Assembly (NCBI RefSeq): GCF_030317115.1
Contig: NZ_JASZYF010000007.1
Span: 186,001 to 250,000 of the forward strand
Source of the DNA: Variovorax gracilis
GTDB lineage: Bacteria > Pseudomonadota > Gammaproteobacteria > Burkholderiales > Burkholderiaceae_C
Direction: 5' to 3'
DNA length: 64,000 nt
Positions 20,170 through 33,180 of the stretch are shown here, in pieces. Both the position numbers and the translations under genes were made by a program. The notes under the pieces were generated by a model. That model was not told where the DNA came from and ran no database searches. It was given only the letters and a program-made list of their open reading frames with translations. The number at the start of each line of letters is the position of its first letter. Within the stretch, counting starts at the first letter, position 1.

Positions 20170-20505
20170 GTCGTCTGGCCGAGTCCGCCCCCGCTGGCGG
20201 GGACTGGAAACCGGGAGCGATCTCGGGATGGTGATGGTGCGCCAAGTTGGACGTGTCTGGGCACTGGTGCGAGCATTTTCTAGTCCCATTCGGACGCACG
20301 GTAAAACAACCAACAAACTAGCCGGGCGGCGTAGGCGGGCTGAATCACGACCCTCGCCCTGCAGACACTGGGTAGGAGCGCAACTTACTCGTTGAACCGT
20401 TCAACGGCACGAACCAACTCAGGGCACGTTGACGTGATACTGGCGGACAGACAATATGTGGTCCGGGGCTCTTGGTGGGCTCCAATCAGGAACCGAGCAG
20501 TACAA
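20170..20505. other. Gap between the last core-like gene and the island
   Basis: No gene is supported here. On the plus strand TTGACG at 20429 and CAATAT at 20452 are 17 bases apart and could be a weak promoter for the MerR-like gene, but the -10 match is poor (3 of 6). No direct repeat or tRNA fragment marking an island boundary was found by eye. Confidence 0.4.
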
Positions 20506-21282: not shown

Positions 21283-21590
21283 TTAGCGTTGTAGGTGATG
21301 CCGCAAATCAGGCACGCCTCGGCGACACACGCGCAGTTGTCCAAGCAATTCTGTGTGATCCACGAGTTTCATGGCCACGAGCGAATGAACCCCCTTCTCG
21401 CTCTACCATGTGCCTTCGACGCTCAACAGCTTTGCGCCGAGCAGCACTGTGCGCTGCTTCTCGGCGATCTGCGGCCAGACGATGATGTTCACGGTTCCGG
21501 TCTCGTCTTCGAGCGTCGCGAAGATCACGCCTTTCGCGGTGCTCGGCCGTTGCCGATGCGTCACGATCCCGCTCGCACGAACCTTTTGTC
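21283..21590 (-). pseudogene. Remnant of error-prone DNA polymerase dnaE2 (3' end)
   Basis: Read on the minus strand, this piece encodes the C-terminal OB-fold of DnaE2: VRASGIVTHRQRPSTAKGVI, then FATLEDETGTVNIIVWPQIA and LLGAKLLSVEGTW. At 21403-21405 a TAG interrupts the frame where relatives have Gln after the Trp. The same frame then continues as VHSLVAMKLVDHTELLGQL, again DnaE2-like, before diverging. Nothing of the N-terminal 900 or so residues is present. This is a translesion polymerase gene (imuC/dnaE2) reduced to its tail by an amber codon and truncation. Confidence 0.75.
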
Positions 21591-22148
21591 GATCCTTGGC
21601 CTTGCAACGAAGTTGCTGGGGGGATTCGAACGACCCGAGCGCGTGAACTCGGGCGAAGGCTGAAAAAGTGCGCTGCCTTCCGATTTCGGATTCGATTTCT
21701 CCAGCAGCGTCACTCGCGTTCCAAACACGGAGCAACCGCCACGTCCCCTCAACGTACCCGGGGCCATTTCCGTCGACGCCTCGACAGGCACTGGCCCATG
21801 TCCGAGAAGGTCTGTGTCAAGCACTCGCCGACCGAGCTGTGTACAGGCTGATTTTACCGCAGCGCCTGAGGCGAGCGCCACCCCCGACGAGCCATGCGGA
21901 CCACCCCGACCCGCCATGCGCGGCCACGGGTGCAGGCTGTGCTCCGGCACCCTGCTGCTGCGTGCTTTGCCCTGCCCTCCTTGTCCTTCTCCGGGGGGTT
22001 CGCTCCGCCTTTTGGGCGCCGTTGGGCGAAGCGAAGCGCGGACCTTGAAACCGTCCAACAGACGCCAGACTCGCCGGGCCGAACCCACCGCATGTACCTC
22101 CTTCGGACAGCGACACCGCACGAAAGGGGCAAGCCACACTTCACCCTG
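21591..22148. other. Stretch with no supported gene
   Basis: Open frames occur on both strands here but none shows family motifs, a convincing start, or residues conserved with anything I recognise. High GC gives long spurious frames. It may contain further decayed DNA upstream of the dnaE2 remnant. Confidence 0.4.
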
Positions 22149-22173
22149 AATTAATGTCAAAAAGACATTAATT
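22149..22173. repeat. Perfect 25-bp palindrome, possible operator or partition-like site
   Basis: AATTAATGTC and GACATTAATT form perfect 10-base arms around AAAAA. Just downstream a second inverted repeat, TTTCAAT and ATTGAAA at 22188-22207, has 7-base arms. A further half-site CATTAAT lies at 22254-22260 by the putative transcription start. The tract is very AT-rich against its GC-rich surroundings. It precedes the ParB-like gene and could be an operator or a centromere-like site; this is inference. Confidence 0.65.
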
Positions 22174-22220
22174 GGCGATGTTGCTATTTTCAATAAATCA
22201 ATTGAAATCAACGGGTTGCA

Positions 22221-22249
22221 TTGACATGCGCTGGGCGACTATGCATACT
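22221..22249 (+). promoter_or_regulatory. Strong sigma-70 type promoter upstream of the ParB-like gene
   Basis: A perfect -35 TTGACA (22221-22226) and CATACT (22244-22249, 4 of 6 matches to TATAAT) are spaced by exactly 17 bases. It reads toward the ParB-like gene and lies just after two palindromes. A CATTAAT half-site of the first palindrome overlaps the expected start of transcription, suggesting repression by whatever binds there. Confidence 0.62.
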
Positions 22250-22315
22250 TTTGCATTAATCGAAGTCCAGGCATCGGCTTGGGCGCTGCCTTCAGCCAAC
22301 GTCGGGGGATTGACC

Positions 22316-22534
22316 ATGTCGCGTCGCCGCAGGGGTGAACTGTCAAGCGTTGCGTTCCTCACGCAGCCGTCGAAGGGGGCAGCGTTACTCCAGGGCAGCG
22401 CGGTCGACCATCGGGGCTGGCGATGGGCGACGGCTCGGCGTTCCATCGGCTTCACGGCCCCACGATCCGAAGCGGCCGTTAGCGCGCACCGAGGCACCTG
22501 CGGATACGTTTTCATCGGAGCGGCAAGACCATGA
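22316..22534 (+). CDS. Possible small basic ORF coupled to the ParB-like gene
   Basis: A 72-residue frame beginning MSRRRRGELSSVAFL starts 60-70 bases after the promoter, behind a GGGGGAT ribosome-binding-like sequence, and its TGA overlaps the ATG of the ParB-like gene. The product is basic and has no recognisable domain. Position and coupling argue for translation, possibly as a leader peptide, but composition does not prove it. It may be a chance frame. Confidence 0.35.
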   Translation: MSRRRRGELSSVAFLTQPSKGAALLQGSAVDHRGWRWATARRSIGFTAPRSEAAVSAHRGTCGYVFIGAARP

Positions 22535-23235
22535 CCGGCGCCGACCTGGAGGGTCCCGGCCTGCGCCTCCTGAACCCCACGAACATCGTCTCGTCCCCAT
22601 GGACGGACAGAGACCCTCGCGCGTTCACAACGAGCGAGTTCGACAATCTCAAAAAAAGCATCTGTTCCACGGGCAGGAACATCGTTCCAATCAAGGTCAG
22701 GCTCCTACAGGCCCCGCCCCCTGAATCGCCGACTGCACTCCGGCCGGAAGGCGACCGCAGGCCTGTGTACGAGATCGTCTACGGGTACCTTCGATGCCGC
22801 GCGTGTCTGGAACTCGGGATCGGCGTGCTGGCCATCGTCGCGGATGTTTGGTACGGGGACATGTTGATCGAGTACGTCCGAGAGAACCGGTGCCGCAGCG
22901 GTCCCAGTCCCTACGAAATGGGCCAGATGTATGCGCGGGCTGTGGGCACGGTCTTCCCCACTGCAAGGCGGCTCGCCGCGGCCATGGGCGACGACCACGC
23001 GGTGGTATTACAGTACCTGGACCTGGCGCAATTGCCACCTGAAGTGGTCCGCGCATTCGCCTCACCGCTCGATTTGCAACTTCGATGGGCAGCCAAGCTA
23101 CGCTGCGCCCAAGAGCATGACCTGCCGGCGCTCTTGGCGCGCGCCGCTGCGCTGGAGGGCCGTGGGCTTCCCGCCCATCAAGTCATGGCTGCCCTCGTTC
23201 CAACTCCTGCTCGCTTCAACAGATCGAAGGAATGA
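22531..23235 (+). CDS. ParB-like nuclease/partition-domain protein
   Basis: A 234-residue protein with a ParB/Sulfiredoxin-type N-terminal domain: NPTNIVSSPWTDRDPRAF, then LKKSICSTGRNIVPIKVR and YEIVYGYLRCRACLELGIG, matching the ParB pattern of NPR, GQ-x-PI-x-VR and YE-x-V-x-G-x-RR. A ParB box II-like IEYVRENRCRSGPSPYEMGQ and a helix-turn-helix-like region (GTVFPTARRLAAAMG) follow. The usual GER motif is GYL here, so CTPase activity is doubtful. There is no parA nearby. It overlaps the following unknown gene and probably belongs to a replication, transfer or regulatory module of an integrated element. Confidence 0.68.
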   Translation: MTGADLEGPGLRLLNPTNIVSSPWTDRDPRAFTTSEFDNLKKSICSTGRNIVPIKVRLLQAPPPESPTALRPEGDRRPVYEIVYGYLRCRACLELGIGVLAIVADVWYGDMLIEYVRENRCRSGPSPYEMGQMYARAVGTVFPTARRLAAAMGDDHAVVLQYLDLAQLPPEVVRAFASPLDLQLRWAAKLRCAQEHDLPALLARAAALEGRGLPAHQVMAALVPTPARFNRSKE

Positions 23236-23237
23236 CG

Positions 23238-23705
23238 ATGGCCACGGTGCGTTCGCTCAGAGGGGCTGTCGCCGGCTCAAAGAACTACTGGGTCTGGTGT
23301 GTCCCTGGCAGGAAAAGTCCCAGGACGATGCCGATCAGCATCCTGTGCATGACGGACGAAGGGCCGCGGTACTTGCCCACATCCATTGCGGCACCGCACA
23401 GCCTGCGCTCACGACCTGTACCGTACAGCGAAGTCAGGCCCGCGCAGGGCGACACCGACCTGGCGGAGGCCGTCTACGAATGGCAGATGGTCGGCGCAGC
23501 AGAAGTGTCGTTGGCAGAACAAGCGCTCGCCTACGAAGCGGCCACGGCGAGGCGATTTTTGGCGCCGGCGTCCCTCGTTTTCGCGCCCGCTTCAGCCCCG
23601 GTCGCGGACGAGAACCCGTATCTCGGCAGGAGCCTGTGGGTGCAAGTGACCGGGCGAGAAAGCGATGTCTCGGGCTTGGCTCGCCAGTGTGCACGAGCCC
23701 TTTGA
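23238..23705 (+). CDS. Unknown protein, first of two tandem paralogs
   Basis: A 155-residue protein of no family I recognise. It starts behind a GAAGGA ribosome binding site inside the end of the ParB-like gene; an ATG two codons earlier overlaps that stop (ATGA). It is clearly related to the next gene. Shared positions include W-x-WC near residue 18, P-x-x-I-x-C, GP-x-x-x-PT-x-I-x-AP-x-SLR, Y-x-E-x-x-P, AVY-x-W, ARRFL-x-P, FAPA, GRS and the C-terminal LAR...ARAL. No signal peptide or membrane segment is seen. A conserved Trp/Cys pair and ending suggest a compact domain. Confidence 0.65.
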   Translation: MATVRSLRGAVAGSKNYWVWCVPGRKSPRTMPISILCMTDEGPRYLPTSIAAPHSLRSRPVPYSEVRPAQGDTDLAEAVYEWQMVGAAEVSLAEQALAYEAATARRFLAPASLVFAPASAPVADENPYLGRSLWVQVTGRESDVSGLARQCARAL

Positions 23706-23805
23706 AATCATCGTTGCCCGGGGCATCAGGGCGGCGAGGTGCTCGATTCCAGCTGAATGGTTGAATGAAGATGGCAACGCCGCCAACGTCCGATAGGAGC
23801 CGTCC

Positions 23806-24294
23806 ATGTCCAATGTCTACTACGGCGATTTCGCAGAGACAGAGCGCGACTGGACTTGGTGCAGCCCCGTCGCGTGCAGCCCGAAGAACACGCCGCTCGC
23901 CATCAGGTGCCTGCCTCCTGACCGTGGGCCGTTCTTTGTGCCCACGACGATCATTGCGCCTGAAAGCCTGCGTCACCCAAACCTCCTCTACACCGAGATC
24001 GCCCCCACAAGCGACGACCGAAGGTTCACCCGCGCCGTCTACCAATGGTGCTTCTTGTGCGATCCGGCGTTGGACATGCGCGACGAGGTCGATCTGTGGC
24101 GCGCCCGGCTAACCGCGCATGCGGTCTGCACCGCCAGGCGCTTCCTGAGGCCGACCGACGCCCAATTTGCGCCCGCGAAGAATCCAATCCGGATCCCAGA
24201 CTTGCATGTCGGGAGATCAATCCCTTCTCGTTCGAAAAAAGGGCTCTACGCACACGCTGGAAGGTTGGCTCGGAAGTCGGCGCGCGCCCTTTGA
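23806..24294 (+). CDS. Unknown protein, second of two tandem paralogs
   Basis: A 162-residue protein homologous along its whole length to the preceding gene: WTWCSPVACSPKN, IRCLPPDRGPFFVPT, IIAPESLRHPNLLYTEIAP, RAVYQWCF, ARRFLRPTDAQFAPA, GRSIPSR and the ending LARKSARAL. It differs by extra cysteines (CFLCDP) and a basic segment SRSKKG. It starts behind AGGAG, 100 bases after its sister, so it may have its own initiation. Function unknown. Tandem duplication followed by divergence suggests either a heteromeric complex or selection for variation. Confidence 0.65.
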   Translation: MSNVYYGDFAETERDWTWCSPVACSPKNTPLAIRCLPPDRGPFFVPTTIIAPESLRHPNLLYTEIAPTSDDRRFTRAVYQWCFLCDPALDMRDEVDLWRARLTAHAVCTARRFLRPTDAQFAPAKNPIRIPDLHVGRSIPSRSKKGLYAHAGRLARKSARAL

Positions 24295-26824: not shown

Positions 26825-28189
26825 TCACTGCGTGGCGAGGCTGGCGGATTGCGAAGTTGCAGGGACGTTGGGTGCAGATACTTGGGATAGGCTTTGGCGA
26901 TATTCCATGGCTTCAGGGATGTCCTCGAATTCCAGCAGTTCGCCAGCGAGCGCGCTCAGATGCATCTTGGCCTCCAGCGGCGTTGCGCGGAAGAACTCGC
27001 GTCGGCGGTTGACGGCGTTGACCCGCCGCTCGCTCAGACGCGCATGCATCTGGCCCTCGATGCCCACGGCATCCTTGGAGAAGAAGAGCGCGTGCACGTC
27101 GAAATTGAACGGCACCGACGCGTCGCTCAGTTCGCGGATGCGATCCCTTGGATCGAGTCGGCGAGTCATACCGACCTTGACCATCGTCTCGCCAAATGAG
27201 CCGATGTTGGAGATCACGTAGACATAGCCGGCACGGATATTGGCGGCTCGATAGTCGACATCCGCCAGTGCCCGATCCACGTCGGCGAGTTGATCGCGCA
27301 TGCGTGCAACCGCCTCCAGATCCCCCTTTGCTTCAAGCGCCGCAAGCGCGTTGGCGTAGTGTGTGCGCTCCTTCTCAAGGCGTTCGCGTTCGCGCTCCAA
27401 CTCCTGCTGAGCCTTTCGCTCCTCCTTGAGCCGCTCGCGCTCGGCGCGATCGGCCTCCTTCTCTTCGGCCTGCTTTTGCAGAAAGTCGGCGGTCAAGGAC
27501 AACTCGTCGATGCGGGCGCGCAGGTATTGCGCTGAAACCTGGATGTCCATGCTGCGACCGAGGCGCTCGATGGTCGAGGCCACCTTGCGCAGTCGTTCCA
27601 CGGCGGCATCGAGCTTGTACGGCTTGAGCGAGCGGACGAGGTTGTCTGCCTCGGCATTGAAGGCGCGCAGCATAAGCTTGGAAAAGTCGCGCACCATCGC
27701 CTTGCCCTCGGTGGTGGAGCCGTTGACCGTCCAATTGGTGGTTGCTTGGATAGCGCCGCCATCCTTCTTGGCCATCTCCTTGATCGTCGCCTGCACGACG
27801 TCCAGAGCGAGGCGAAACGACACAGCATCGGTCAGCGGATGGCGATACTCGTAGATGCCTACCTCTTGGAGCATCACGACATCTTCCGTAACCACGATCG
27901 CTTGGCGTAGTTCTTCCTGTCTACGCAGCAAGAGGCTGATCGCCTCCTTGGCTTCCTCGCGCTCGCGCGCCAGGGCGTGCTTCTGGCGAAGCATTTCGTT
28001 CTCAATTTCCTTGGCCCGCTCTTCCAACTCTAGGAACGAGAAGGCGCCGAGCCGTTCGAGACGGTCCGTCGCTTCGCGCAATTCATGACGCAATTCCTGG
28101 ATCTTGATGGACTGCTCGGCCGCCATGCGGCGAGCGCCGAAAAGGGGGACTTTGACGGCCTGGAAGTTGGTCTGGTCGTTGTTGTTCAT
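26825..28189 (-). CDS. DUF4041 and T5orf172 (GIY-YIG-type) domain protein
   Basis: A 454-residue protein with an N-terminal coiled coil (ELRHELREATDRLERLG and following), a central DUF4041 region (TEDVVMLQEVGIYEYRHPL to about residue 260), a second charged coiled coil (QAEEKEADRAERERLKEE), and a C-terminal T5orf172 domain with GYVYVISNIGSFGETMVKVG, DPRDRIRELSDASVPF and the acidic residue in GIEGQMHARL. T5orf172 is a branch of the GIY-YIG nuclease fold. Such proteins occur in phages and defence islands. The ATG giving MNNNDQTNFQAVKVPLFG was chosen. It stands alone on the minus strand; function is inferred only as a DNA-acting accessory protein. Confidence 0.82.
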   Translation of the reverse strand: MNNNDQTNFQAVKVPLFGARRMAAEQSIKIQELRHELREATDRLERLGAFSFLELEERAKEIENEMLRQKHALAREREEAKEAISLLLRRQEELRQAIVVTEDVVMLQEVGIYEYRHPLTDAVSFRLALDVVQATIKEMAKKDGGAIQATTNWTVNGSTTEGKAMVRDFSKLMLRAFNAEADNLVRSLKPYKLDAAVERLRKVASTIERLGRSMDIQVSAQYLRARIDELSLTADFLQKQAEEKEADRAERERLKEERKAQQELERERERLEKERTHYANALAALEAKGDLEAVARMRDQLADVDRALADVDYRAANIRAGYVYVISNIGSFGETMVKVGMTRRLDPRDRIRELSDASVPFNFDVHALFFSKDAVGIEGQMHARLSERRVNAVNRRREFFRATPLEAKMHLSALAGELLEFEDIPEAMEYRQSLSQVSAPNVPATSQSASLATQ

Positions 28190-28476
28190 GTGCTCTGCAA
28201 ATTGACGAAGCCTCGATGGTCGAGATATTTGGGGCGGGTACCGGGCCTCCACGGTCCACGAGGTCGACGCGATCCCGGCATTGCGTGAATGGTTCACGAA
28301 CTGGGCCGAAAGATGCGGGTCGAGCCAAGAGGTCTCGCGTGACTACAGGGCAGCGAAGCGGGCTGGCCCACCTCGTCGTTCGGCCTCATGCTGGCGCGCC
28401 GCCTTTCGTGGGGGTTTCGACTCCGGCGGATCTATACCCGTCCCTCGGGGCCACACGCAGGACGCACGGGCGCCCC

Positions 28477-29241
28477 TTAGCGAGTCTCAGCCATTGGCGG
28501 GCCATATCCCAGCTTGTCGTTGGCCAGGTGGATCACATCGCTGGTGAGCAAGCGATCAACCATCTGTTGGACCTTTTGCGGAACCGGTGCCAGGCCGAAC
28601 TTGGTCTGGATGTGACGCTCCAGGGCCGGCAGACTCTTGGGGCGATTGGGAGCGCCAAGGTCCTTGACAAGATCACGATACATCTCGATCAGCGGCTTTT
28701 GGACGGGCCTCTTCTTGGCAAGTGGCCTTGCTTGCGGTGACGCCTTCGAATCTGCAGTCGGAGCCTTCCGCTTTGCCGGCTTCGCGCCGCTTGCGGCCTC
28801 CTTCTTGGCGACTGCCGCGCGCTTGCTCTGCTTGACCGTGCTGGACGAAGAAGGCTTGGAAGGCGCGGCGGTCTTGGTCGCCACTGCGGGCAGCGCCCTC
28901 ATGCGCTTCACGGAGAACGCCAGCGTTCGTGCATGGGCAATTGGCGGGTCGTACCCGGTGTCCTTGGCCAACACCACGAATCGACCCTGAGGCTGCTTGG
29001 CGGCAAGGTAGCCAAGGTAGAACACCAAATGGAAATCCAACGAGTTCGCGCCGGTTCGCGAGATCGGAATGAGGGTCGACCGCGGGCTGTTGAGCTCGAA
29101 GTCCGCCTTGCGTTTGAGCTGGTTTGGGCCGTAGAAGACCCATGCCTGCCCTGCATCTCCCAGCCACGCCTCCACATCGCCTGGAGAGGGTTGGACATTT
29201 TCCAGATCCACCAGCAAGTGGACGCTGGTCGACGTGGTCAC
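28477..29241 (-). CDS. PIN-like domain protein with basic linker
   Basis: A 254-residue protein whose first 115 residues form a PIN-like nuclease domain: HLLVDLENVQPSPGDV with the first acidic pair, NSLDFHLVFYLGYLAA with the next aspartate and VVLAKDTGYDPPIAHAR with the last. A Lys/Ala/Ser-rich linker (about 117-185) follows, then a helical C-terminal domain (LIEMYRDLVKDLGAPNRPKS). The linker probably contacts nucleic acid. The start overlaps the stop of the Mrr-like gene by four bases, so the two are co-translated. RNA or DNA as substrate cannot be decided. Confidence 0.78.
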   Translation of the reverse strand: MTTSTSVHLLVDLENVQPSPGDVEAWLGDAGQAWVFYGPNQLKRKADFELNSPRSTLIPISRTGANSLDFHLVFYLGYLAAKQPQGRFVVLAKDTGYDPPIAHARTLAFSVKRMRALPAVATKTAAPSKPSSSSTVKQSKRAAVAKKEAASGAKPAKRKAPTADSKASPQARPLAKKRPVQKPLIEMYRDLVKDLGAPNRPKSLPALERHIQTKFGLAPVPQKVQQMVDRLLTSDVIHLANDKLGYGPPMAETR

Positions 29242-30104
29242 GCCGTGCCGCGGCAGCGCGGGTAGTCCGAGCAGCCCCAGAACTGTTGGCCAGCATTGGC
29301 ACCCTTCTTAGCCGTCCGTCGCACCATCGCCTGCGCACACCTGGGACAGCTCGGCGCAGATACGTTCGCCGAACCGGTGCCTGACCCAGAGGAGCGTCCT
29401 GCTTCCCTGTCAGGCTTGGTCTGTGCTGCGCTCGTGGCAGCCTTGGCCTGCTTGAGTAGCTGGTGCAGCTTCGCCCCATCGATCAGCCGGACGTTGCGTC
29501 CGCTGGCGAACTCTTGTGCCTCGGCGGTGAACTGGCCGGAGGTGACGACAAACCCACCCGCCGCGCCCATGGCCGCCATCGCGCCATACAGCTCCCGCAC
29601 CACGGGCACGCCGACCTTGAAGGCCCGCCATTGCTTGCACTGCACGAGGTAGCGCTCCCCGCTCTTGCGAAGCACCAGATCGACACCGCCGTCTGGGCCC
29701 GGCGTGTCGTTCTCTTCGACGGCATAGCCCTGGACTCGAAAGCCCTCGCCCACCAGCATCTCGAATTCGCGCCAACTCATGCCGTCCAGGACGCTAGGGG
29801 CGTCGGAACGCGTGGCGCTGGTCACCAACGACCTGCGCATGCGGCGTCGCCAGGCAGAGGCCGCGGCGCCAGCCAGACAAATAAGCGGCAGGATGTACTG
29901 GCCAACAGAAGCGAGCCCGCGCCCGACGCCCCCGACCATGGCACCGCTTAAGTCGCCCGGCTTGAACGCCACCAATGGCGCCGCTGCGATCCTATGAAGC
30001 AAGACGTAGCCAACAACAGCCAGGACGACACCTACATACCAAGGCAGTCGTGCAACCAGATCAATCAGGTCTTCTGCGGGGCTGGACTTCTTGCGGCGGG
30101 CCAT
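29238..30104 (-). CDS. Membrane-anchored Mrr-like restriction endonuclease with zinc ribbon
   Basis: A 288-residue protein with two N-terminal transmembrane helices (WYVGVVLAVVGYVLLHRIAA and QYILPLICLAGAAASAW), then an Mrr-type PD-(D/E)xK domain (MSWREFEMLVGEGFRVQGY, PGPDGGVDLVL, and the Gln-x-Lys in YLVQCKQWR), and a C-terminal topoisomerase-type zinc ribbon (CPRCAQAM, then FWGCSDYPRCRG). The catalytic Asp and QxK are present. Mrr-like enzymes usually cut modified DNA. The ATG after the TTG-initiated extension was preferred. It overlaps the PIN-like gene and is divergent from a helicase that carries the same zinc ribbon. Confidence 0.85.
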   Translation of the reverse strand: MARRKKSSPAEDLIDLVARLPWYVGVVLAVVGYVLLHRIAAAPLVAFKPGDLSGAMVGGVGRGLASVGQYILPLICLAGAAASAWRRRMRRSLVTSATRSDAPSVLDGMSWREFEMLVGEGFRVQGYAVEENDTPGPDGGVDLVLRKSGERYLVQCKQWRAFKVGVPVVRELYGAMAAMGAAGGFVVTSGQFTAEAQEFASGRNVRLIDGAKLHQLLKQAKAATSAAQTKPDREAGRSSGSGTGSANVSAPSCPRCAQAMVRRTAKKGANAGQQFWGCSDYPRCRGTA

Positions 30105-30492
30105 CGACGATTCCGTTGTTTGGGCCAATTCTCACCGCGAGGCGCTAGCGATCACGCGGCGTTGAAGTTCGAGTGGGCAATACTTCACACTCCGCTGTGG
30201 GCTGCATGCCACGTGATTGCAGATCCCCTCGTGAAGTAGCGACCCATGGGGGCGGAAAATCCAGTGCGAGTTCCATCCCTGGCGCCACTGGTGGCGAACT
30301 AGGACTGCCGACCGGGAGGCGTCATCGGGTCGACTGCCTCGCGGCCATGGAGAGCAACGTCTACACTGCGATCGTGCCCGCGCGAGCCTTGCGCAATCCA
30401 AGGCAACGCGGCGCACTTCCGCAAGGAGTTGTACGCCAGCGTCCCCCCGAGGGAGGACCGATCTCTCCTTTTAGGTAATGCGTTCATAGCCA
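30105..30492. promoter_or_regulatory. Divergent control region between the Mrr-like and helicase genes
   Basis: This gap must hold the promoters of both divergent units. The only structured element noticed is a short palindrome, CGCCAC-TG-GTGGCG at 30283-30296, a possible operator. No clear -35/-10 pair was found by eye on either strand. Confidence 0.4.
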
Positions 30493-33180
30493 ATGACGAC
30501 TACCTGGAAACCGTCAACGCTGGGCAAGTTGCTCACTCGCGCACCTGACTGGACGCTCGAGCTGGACGGCGAGCGCCTTCGCCTCACGATTCGGGGTGAG
30601 ACGACCCATTTCGACATCGGCCAGTTAGAACGGCTTTCCGTCAAACCGGGCCTGATCTGGGGCACGCTGATCATTCCGTTGGGCGATGCCGACAAGCTGG
30701 CACTCGACGGAATCTCCAACCATGACGCCAAGCAGTGCAAGCGCGCGATCGGCGAAGCCCTTGCGGCCAAGCGCCAATGCGACCAGATCGTCGGTTGGGT
30801 GGGAACGACCCTCGAAGCCTTCAAGCGGCAGATTGCTCGACGCGGTTGGCTCGGCCGCGAGTTTGCGCAGCGATTGGAGGCGTCGAAGCCTTCGTTCCCG
30901 ACCTCGATCGCAGACTCCACAGCAGGCCGGCATCACCTGAGCCGCCAGCCGCAATCAGTTCAGGACGCAGTGCGGACGTGGCAGCGTCGCTTCGAAGAAT
31001 TCGTCACGGAAGTGAACGAGCGGCACGCGGCCCAGGTGGCCGAGATGGATCGATCGTTCTTTGATCGGGTGGAGAAATCGCCACTGACCGCGGAGCAGCG
31101 CAAAGCGGTGATGTGCTTCGACAACCGCATGCTCCTGGTGGCCTCCGCCGGTTCGGGAAAGACCTCCACCATGGTCGCCAAAGCCGGCTACGCGCTTCGA
31201 CACGGGTATTTTTCTCCCGAGCGCATACTGCTTCTTGCCTTCAACACGGACGCGGCAGCGGAACTGCGCGAGCGCGTCCGTGCAAGGCTGGGACCCTTGG
31301 GCCTACCCGCTGATCTAGTTGTCGCGAAGACCTTCCACGCCTTCGGCCTGGATGTCATCGGCGCGGCGGCCGGACGAAAGCCATCCCTCGCACCCTGGCT
31401 GGAAAGCGGCGAGGATCTGGCGACCCTGGTCGGTCTGATTGACGACCTGAAGGACCGCGATCCCGAGTTCCGAGTCCAGTGGGATCTGTATCGCATCGTG
31501 CTTTGGCAGGACCTCCCCAAGTTTGGCAAGGAAGAGGAGAACCCCAACGCTTGGAGCAGCGAGTCGCGTCGCGATGGCTTCTGGACGCTCAATGGGGAAG
31601 TCGTGAGAAGCCAGGGCGAAGTGGTGCTGGCCAACTGGCTCTTCTACAACGGAATTCGATACGTCTATGAGGGCGACTACGAACACGACACGGCCGATGC
31701 GAACTACCGACAGTACCGGCCGGACTTCTACTTGCCGGACGCCAAGGCCTACCTGGAACACTGGGCCTTGGACGAAAACGGCGACCCCCCGAAAGCGTTC
31801 GCGAGCTACAGGGAGAGCATGGCCTGGAAGCGTGCCCTGCATCAGCAGCATGGGACGATCCTGCTGGAAACCACCATGGCGCAGCTCTGGTCAGGTGAGG
31901 CGTTTGAGTATCTGAGCCGTGAACTCCCCAAGCTGGGCGTCAACTTAGACCCGAACCCCGATCGGGCAGTGCCCGGCCGCCAGCCCGTCGAGAATCCGCG
32001 CCTCGCGGTCACCTTCAGAACCTTCCTCACACATGTGAAGAGCAGCAGGTTGTCGATGCAGGACCTGCGCGAACGGCTGCAGCAACGGATCGCCGGCGAC
32101 TTTCAATTCCGCCACGGAATGTTCCTGCGCCTGTTTGAGAAGATTCTGGGTGCCTGGACGGACAAGCTTCGCTCAGGCGGGTGCATCGACTTCGAAGACA
32201 TGCTCAACATGGCCACCGATTGCGTGGAGTCGGGCCAATGGACCAGCCCCTATGAGTTGGTCATGGTGGACGAGTTCCAGGATGCAAGCCGAGCACGCGC
32301 CCGAATGGCAGCCGCGTTGGTCCACGGCGAAGATAAGTACCTCTTCGCGGTCGGGGACGACTGGCAGGCAATCAACCGCTTCGCGGGGGCCGACCTCGGG
32401 GTGATGACCGAGTTCGAATCTCTCTTTGGCAAAGGCGTCACACTGAAGCTGGAGACGACCTTCCGCTGCCCTCCTTCCCTGTGCGGCATCAGCAGCAAGT
32501 TCGTGCTGAAGAACCCGCGTCAGATCGCCAAGGAAGTGCGCTCGCCCATTCCCGACATCACGGAGCCAGTGCGCATCATCCGCGTAGAAGATGAACGATT
32601 CATCCGCGGGGCTATCGAGCGACGTCTCCAAGAGATCTCGAAGGAGTCGGCTGCAAGCGGAAGCAAAGTCAAAGTTCTTCTCCTAGGCAGGTACCGAAAG
32701 GACCAGGTCTACATGCCGGACTCGTACGATCGCCGTTGGGTAGAACCGTCTTTCCTCACCGTCCATTCATCCAAAGGACTTGAGGCCGATCACGTCATCA
32801 TTCCGCGGGTCACGTCGGAGACGCTGGGGTTCCCCAGCAAGGTCGCAGATGACCCTGTGCTGCAATTGGCGATGCCGACCGGCGATGGATTTGAGTACGC
32901 GGAGGAACGGCGACTCTTCTACGTCGCCCTCACCCGCGCTCGCTCAACGGCAACGCTCATCACCGTTCGCCACATGGAGTCGGCCTTCGTCACCGAACTG
33001 CTTAAGGGTCAGGGCCTGCGCATTCTCAACGCCGATGGCTCTGAAGCTGATTCCGAGCTCTGCCCGAAGTGCGGCAACGGATTCCTCAGGCTCAAGAAGT
33101 CGAAGTACGGGCCGTTCATGGGTTGCAGCACTTTCCCGCGTTGTAGCTACACGCGCGATGCCCGCCGGCTTTCCGGATGA
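30493..33180 (+). CDS. UvrD-family helicase, helicase IV-like, with nuclease-like insert
   Basis: An 895-residue superfamily 1 helicase. The N-terminus resembles helicase IV (WTLELDGERLRLTIRGE). Motifs: Walker A VASAGSGKTSTMVAK near residue 217, Walker B VMVDEFQDASRARA near 590, motif III VGDDWQAINRFAG, motif IV-V VHSSKGLEADHVIIP near 757 and motif VI YVALTRARS near 812. A segment at about 373-425 (GEVVLANWLFYNGIRYVYEG, YRPDFYLPD, YLEHWALD) looks like a PD-(D/E)xK module inserted in the helicase core. The C-terminus is a topoisomerase-type zinc ribbon (CPKCGNGFL, MGCSTFPRCSYT). It is longer than E. coli HelD (684 residues). Its setting suggests defence or repair. Confidence 0.88.
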   Translation: MTTTWKPSTLGKLLTRAPDWTLELDGERLRLTIRGETTHFDIGQLERLSVKPGLIWGTLIIPLGDADKLALDGISNHDAKQCKRAIGEALAAKRQCDQIVGWVGTTLEAFKRQIARRGWLGREFAQRLEASKPSFPTSIADSTAGRHHLSRQPQSVQDAVRTWQRRFEEFVTEVNERHAAQVAEMDRSFFDRVEKSPLTAEQRKAVMCFDNRMLLVASAGSGKTSTMVAKAGYALRHGYFSPERILLLAFNTDAAAELRERVRARLGPLGLPADLVVAKTFHAFGLDVIGAAAGRKPSLAPWLESGEDLATLVGLIDDLKDRDPEFRVQWDLYRIVLWQDLPKFGKEEENPNAWSSESRRDGFWTLNGEVVRSQGEVVLANWLFYNGIRYVYEGDYEHDTADANYRQYRPDFYLPDAKAYLEHWALDENGDPPKAFASYRESMAWKRALHQQHGTILLETTMAQLWSGEAFEYLSRELPKLGVNLDPNPDRAVPGRQPVENPRLAVTFRTFLTHVKSSRLSMQDLRERLQQRIAGDFQFRHGMFLRLFEKILGAWTDKLRSGGCIDFEDMLNMATDCVESGQWTSPYELVMVDEFQDASRARARMAAALVHGEDKYLFAVGDDWQAINRFAGADLGVMTEFESLFGKGVTLKLETTFRCPPSLCGISSKFVLKNPRQIAKEVRSPIPDITEPVRIIRVEDERFIRGAIERRLQEISKESAASGSKVKVLLLGRYRKDQVYMPDSYDRRWVEPSFLTVHSSKGLEADHVIIPRVTSETLGFPSKVADDPVLQLAMPTGDGFEYAEERRLFYVALTRARSTATLITVRHMESAFVTELLKGQGLRILNADGSEADSELCPKCGNGFLRLKKSKYGPFMGCSTFPRCSYTRDARRLSG

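Follow-up and report, generated by a model that had tools for sequence, protein, structure and literature searches.

Organization of the locus

The window (the whole stretch of 64,000 nucleotides that was analysed) carries on its forward strand a ParB-like gene and two tandem genes, designated P2 and P3, which lie where the initial annotation had placed them and which, from their spacing, apparently form one operon. The features of the locus and its surroundings are as follows.

20234-20240: left junction of the apparently foreign DNA, ATGGTGC, common to the tRNA end on contig C28
20392-20991, + strand: MerR-type HTH protein (MerR_1, E=3.7e-10)
21403-21735, - strand: gene fragment, OB fold, with 60 aa 58% identical to an ORF of contig C28
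22149-22173: palindrome 1, AATTAATGTC-aaaaa-GACATTAATT, with perfect 10-bp arms and a 5-nt spacer
22188-22207: palindrome 2, with 7-bp arms
22221-22249, + strand: sigma-70-like promoter TTGACA-17-CATACT, 3' of both palindromes
22316-22534, + strand: possible leader ORF, 72 aa, after GGGGGA, with an ATGA overlap with the start of the ParB-like gene
22531-23235, + strand: ParB-like gene, 234 aa, ParB core and HTH region
23232-23705, + strand: P2, 157 aa (the alternative start ATG 23238, after AAGGA, gives 155 aa)
23806-24294, + strand: P3, 162 aa, start after AGGAG, 100 bp 3' of P2
24972-26249, + strand: tyrosine recombinase (Phage_integrase, E=1.3e-16)
26825-28297, - strand: PD-Lambda-1-type defence protein, DUF4041 and T5orf172 (PADLOC, E=9.7e-110)

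The gene starts overlap or lie close together, as had been proposed: P2 begins at 23232, inside the end of the ParB-like gene at 23235, and P3 follows 100 bp after P2. The 72-aa ORF may be a fourth gene of the operon, judging from its position, its ribosome-site-like stretch and the ATGA overlap; it had no Pfam match at E<=0.1 and no PHROG match at E<=1 and, its own copies aside, a single weak match among the collected loci (E=0.038), which was not convincing. A simple caller based on codon usage and trained on ten ORFs of the window (two left and eight right of the junction, not a clean host set) called none of the ParB-like, P2, P3 and recombinase genes, so that their codon usage is unusual and their coding status stands on homology.

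A promoter behind two palindromes had also been described, and both palindromes and the promoter are present. The promoter is the only sigma-70-like site between 22000 and 24700 (shuffle mean 0.3). When the AT-rich 123 bp were shuffled 2000 times by mononucleotide, 0.5% of the shuffles had arms of at least 9 bp, and seven distinct perfect repeats with arms of at least 9 bp and loops of 0-12 occur across the 64 kb, while the core of palindrome 1 has no further exact copy in this 7.8-Mb genome. Both palindromes lie 5' of the -35 box and not across the promoter, and simple repression is therefore not implied. A palindrome-like site with three mismatches, spotted post hoc and regarded as a lead only, was seen at C28:16520-16540, about 135 bp 5' of an HTH-type ORF and 1.1 kb 5' of a ParB relative beside which parA is not visible.

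Genomic context

Homology of the window to its two closest relatives ends at 20240, within the final few bases of the tRNA-Thr(TGT) gene that they carry, at its 3' end, and the operon thus begins roughly 2 kb into DNA that is apparently foreign. The PepSY gene to the left of the operon is present in 24 of 61 genus genomes (own included), and in all four genomes fetched from the 23 others its distance from tRNA-Thr(TGT) is no more than about 100 bp. In the genome studied here, on the other hand, the intact tRNA-Thr gene and its other flank are found on contig C28 (G000:C28:23605). Flanks that are side by side in four of four relatives are therefore on different contigs here, which places a large insertion or a rearrangement at this tRNA gene. 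The C72 and C28 flanks both lie at the tRNA-Thr junction, and we infer that they are the two ends of one island, although their contigs are not joined in the assembly and a rearrangement may instead be responsible.

The C28 side of the junction also bears the ParB relative that has no visible parA and, adjoining the tRNA gene, a recombinase-like ORF that is presumably of the serine recombinase type. On the same side lies a 1032-aa ORF (C28:6812-9910), which we take to be DnaE2-like, and it is to residues 941-1000 of this ORF that the fragment at 21403-21735 is 58% identical. The tyrosine recombinase encoded 3' of the operon shares 49.6-57.6% identity with integrases in its ten best plasmid records. 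Beyond it, a defence-type cluster occupies 26825-33180 and comprises the PD-Lambda-1 gene and genes for a PIN7 protein, an Mrr-type nuclease and a UvrD/helicase IV-type protein, the last two with a zinc ribbon.

A shortened member of a plasmid ParB family

The ParB-like protein matches TIGR00180 (E=3.8e-14) and SopB_HTH (E=4.8e-5), in both cases below the curated cut-offs, and it matches 685 plasmid records at E<=1e-3, with 37-45% identity in the 30 shown. These matches place it, on sequence grounds, in a plasmid ParB family common among Burkholderiales (for example on plasmids of Variovorax, Hydrogenophaga and Simplicispira) and Rhizobiales, and a ParB of this family is, as such, ordinary plasmid material. 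From the plasmid relatives the host may be placed in Comamonadaceae, close to Variovorax. The same homology is what the locus shares with ParABS systems; it differs from them in that no adjacent parA was found, and no match to parA, rep or transfer genes was obtained among the 12 ORFs scanned between 19.4 and 33.2 kb. No relative of the ParB-like protein was found in viral contigs or phages, and the DNA of the operon matches a single plasmid record, over 63 bases within a ParB gene.

Among 399 family genomes, 60 (own included) carry a ParB match at E<=1e-30, in a survey that scored at most seven candidates per genome and that short divergent copies could escape; the query aside, these matches show 37-48% identity, and those listed have frames of at least 324 codons, compared with 250 here. 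Likewise, 36 aligned relatives are 308-446 aa long, counted from the first Met of the frame, compared with 234 aa. The protein has neither the N-terminal extension nor the C-terminal tail of these relatives, and no C-terminal dimerisation domain was recognised, the alignment stopping short of their C-terminal tail. The ParA-binding motif [LFI]G[KR]G[LFI] is absent, as it is in all 36 relatives. Besides both missing ends and the lack of parA or rep among the scanned neighbours, the protein differs from the Burkholderiales plasmid ParBs in Box II, which reads GYLR in place of their GHRR or GSRR.

Three further, full-length ParB relatives with 41-47% identity are encoded in the same genome. Those on contigs C36 and C16 each adjoin a ParA-type ATPase gene and a replication-type gene (neighbours named by eye, not by family search), and no parA ORF is visible next to the third, on contig C28. 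With ParA-type genes on C36 and C16, a partition or stability module that borrows its ParA from another replicon in the cell can be envisaged, but we consider this the least probable of the readings discussed here: the N-terminal extension of the relatives, the expected site of ParA contact, is missing, identity to the genome's other members is only 41-47%, and the contig of the window bears host genes (secA-type and others) on its left side. The initial annotation had held that this is not an ordinary partition locus, and in this it was right, as it was about the altered nucleotide motif and the lack of a parA partner next to the gene.

The alteration of that motif lies in one residue. Position 87 is L here and R in 36 of 36 aligned relatives, all of which have G-x-R-R at Box II. 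The changed GER motif (GYL) that had been noted is therefore genuine as to the loss of the arginine, the relatives having GHRR or GSRR and not GERR. G85 and R88 of GxxR, the Box III residues E118, N119 and R122 and the HTH region are retained. According to the available parts of two reports, substitutions in GERR of the Streptomyces coelicolor ParB, including R142A, abolished CTP binding (PMC12207404), and the R93A and R94A variants of VirB lost regulatory activity (PMC10653881); we matched these residues to position 87 through the G-x-R-R pattern. The nucleotide switch of the ParB-like protein may accordingly be dead. In the part of PMC12704722 available, on the other hand, Box II of the wider fold is written GxxR, and homologs are reported to bind CTP, ATP or GTP, with no means of predicting from sequence which one. 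Taken with the mutant data, this makes a dead, a weakened and a changed switch all possible.

Of the positions conserved at 85% across the 36 relatives, 53 of 70 are kept, whereas at the columns conserved at 90% the protein departs from the others in 11 of 54, a proportion exceeding that of 34 of the 36 relatives. This also fits decay, and the second reading to be weighed is that the locus is what remains of an integrated plasmid in decay, with a ParB gene trimmed at its ends and drifting and with P2 and P3 as passive cargo. We give this reading serious weight, short of preferring it. It would account for the loss of both ParB ends and the high share of changed conserved residues, for the polymerase-gene fragment 0.8 kb 5', for codon usage unlike that of the ten training ORFs, and for the failure to find a second copy of the trio in the genomes and loci searched. 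It sits less well with three intact frames preceded by ribosome-site-like sequences, a good promoter and the palindromes, and with the retention of those 53 positions, the Box III residues included.

P2 and P3 define a very rare protein family

P2 and P3 are 39% identical to each other (E=2.3e-22), and they had no accepted match in Pfam, NCBIfam, PHROGs or PADLOC, nor did their profile have one among the PDB sequences, the profile search being one that the initial annotation had proposed; its description of them as tandem paralogs of an unfamiliar family is thus upheld. Weak matches of P3 in NCBIfam (E=0.03) and of P2 in PHROGs (E=0.054) were taken as chance, and the absence of Pfam and PADLOC matches provides no sign of a toxin-antitoxin pair. 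Over 153 codons the two genes differ at 78 first, 63 second and 84 third positions, a pattern that mildly favours purifying selection. Structures predicted for P2 and P3 from two-row alignments (A1 and A4) reached mean pLDDT values of 31.1 and 32.4, too low to be of use.

Relatives were sought in genome sets that partly overlap. P2 alone gave no accepted match in 198 relative genomes, its match in genome G111 (E=4.6e-4) lying within a 3289-codon frame; the P2/P3 profile gave one accepted relative among 399 family genomes, in genome G311 (E=1.3e-21), and a three-row profile gave none among 399 order and 369 class genomes. No P2 relative was found when 40 loci surrounding relatives of the ParB-like protein, relatives of the recombinase or other matches were rescored, in genome contigs or viral contigs, by tblastn of P2, P3 and the G311 protein against plasmids (E<=0.1) or of P2 against phages, or among the proteins encoded next to relatives of the G311 neighbour gene. 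Degenerate-codon scans pointed to at least 118 and 15 places, which were then scored again against the A2 profile; the top-ranking one, L048 (E=4e-4), covers the region demanded by the pattern itself and was taken as chance. The same judgement was made of three weak matches elsewhere: in G795, where the match overlaps an ORF that we take to be msrB-like and stops inside; in G189, where it also stops inside; and in G951 (20-21 bits). P2, P3 and the G311 protein thus make up a small family for which none of the libraries searched gave an accepted match.

The G311 relative is the last of five same-strand ORFs with overlapping or close ends (L018:2820-8890), in the order NACHT protein, two unfamiliar genes, a 120-aa ORF and the P2 relative. 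The NACHT gene, whose PADLOC matches are weak (best three E=1.8e-6 to 1e-5), ends 2.2 kb before the P2 relative, and a RES gene lies 3.7 kb beyond it. G311 has a single ParB match, which lies 4.1 Mb off along a 5.6-Mb contig (about 1.5 Mb if circular). The only accepted P2 relative therefore stands without a ParB, and on present evidence the three genes are not conserved together as a unit; that P2 and P3 were nowhere else found beside a ParB-like gene counts, on this single locus, against the operon as originally conceived. The combination with a ParB-like gene is unusual and known from one genome.

The surroundings of both loci bring in a third reading, in which the operon is a module directed against phages or plasmids, the ParB-like protein sensing or marking DNA and P2 and P3 serving as effectors or regulators. 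The PD-Lambda-1, PIN7, Mrr-type and helicase genes start 2.5 kb 3' of P3, and the G311 relative has the NACHT and RES genes near it; from this neighbourhood, the operon possibly has a role in defence. As a full account of the locus we nevertheless judge such a module unlikely, since the ParB-like protein, P2, P3 and the G311 relative have no PADLOC match at E<=0.1, no effector domain was recognised, there are two loci only, and the recombinase gene separates the operon from the defence genes. The PD-Lambda-1 gene itself is on the opposite strand, as a separate gene with no sign of belonging to the operon.

A putative regulator of its own operon

The shortened ParB-like protein is probably either a local regulator or a plasmid leftover. 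Regulation of its own operon is the most economical reading, with decay a close second, and we tentatively prefer it while granting it somewhat less than an even chance: an orphan ParB core of plasmid origin, having lost its partition parts, would sit on a foreign segment inserted at the tRNA-Thr site, where its HTH may bind one or both palindromes just 5' of its own promoter and so control the operon. The nucleotide switch would perhaps be weakened or changed, and P2 and P3, expressed from the shared transcript, would be accessory proteins, possibly related to defence.

Several lines of evidence speak for this reading: the ParB family matches and the three full-length relatives, two of them by a ParA-type ATPase; a frame shorter than theirs that keeps G85, R88, E118, N119 and R122; palindromes directly 5' of the sole promoter-like site, together with the ATGA overlap; a recombinase akin to plasmid integrases and a junction at tRNA-Thr; and the codon-position differences of P2 and P3. 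A further line is that orphan ParBs are linked to mobile elements in the part of the PMC12704722 survey available. Against it we count that the sole other locus of the P2 type has no ParB nearby, and dimerisation without the C-terminal domain is uncertain. Noc and VirB retain that domain.

Several non-partition homologs also retain it, according to the available text of PMC12704722. The ParB-like protein resembles the orphan ParB-CTPase proteins of that survey, and Noc and VirB, in having a ParB core and HTH with clear ParB similarity outside a parAB operon, in its association with mobile DNA and in keeping GxxR at Box II; it differs from them in the apparent loss of the C-terminal dimerisation domain and in the two unfamiliar genes of its operon. 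A shortened orphan ParB carried by a mobile segment is in this respect a variant of a kind already published (PMC12704722, from the part available). A bolder proposal, and a very unlikely one at present, is that a ParB core without this domain, its Box II (GYLR) being re-tuned, works as a DNA-binding switch under nucleotide control; it would recognise either its own palindrome or incoming DNA and govern two proteins from an undescribed family that take part in defence or in competition between elements.

Both P2-family loci found lie near defence-type genes. If the ParB-like protein is active, it would be a natural test of the first Box II arginine and would show how little of a ParB suffices for a DNA-binding switch once partition has been lost.
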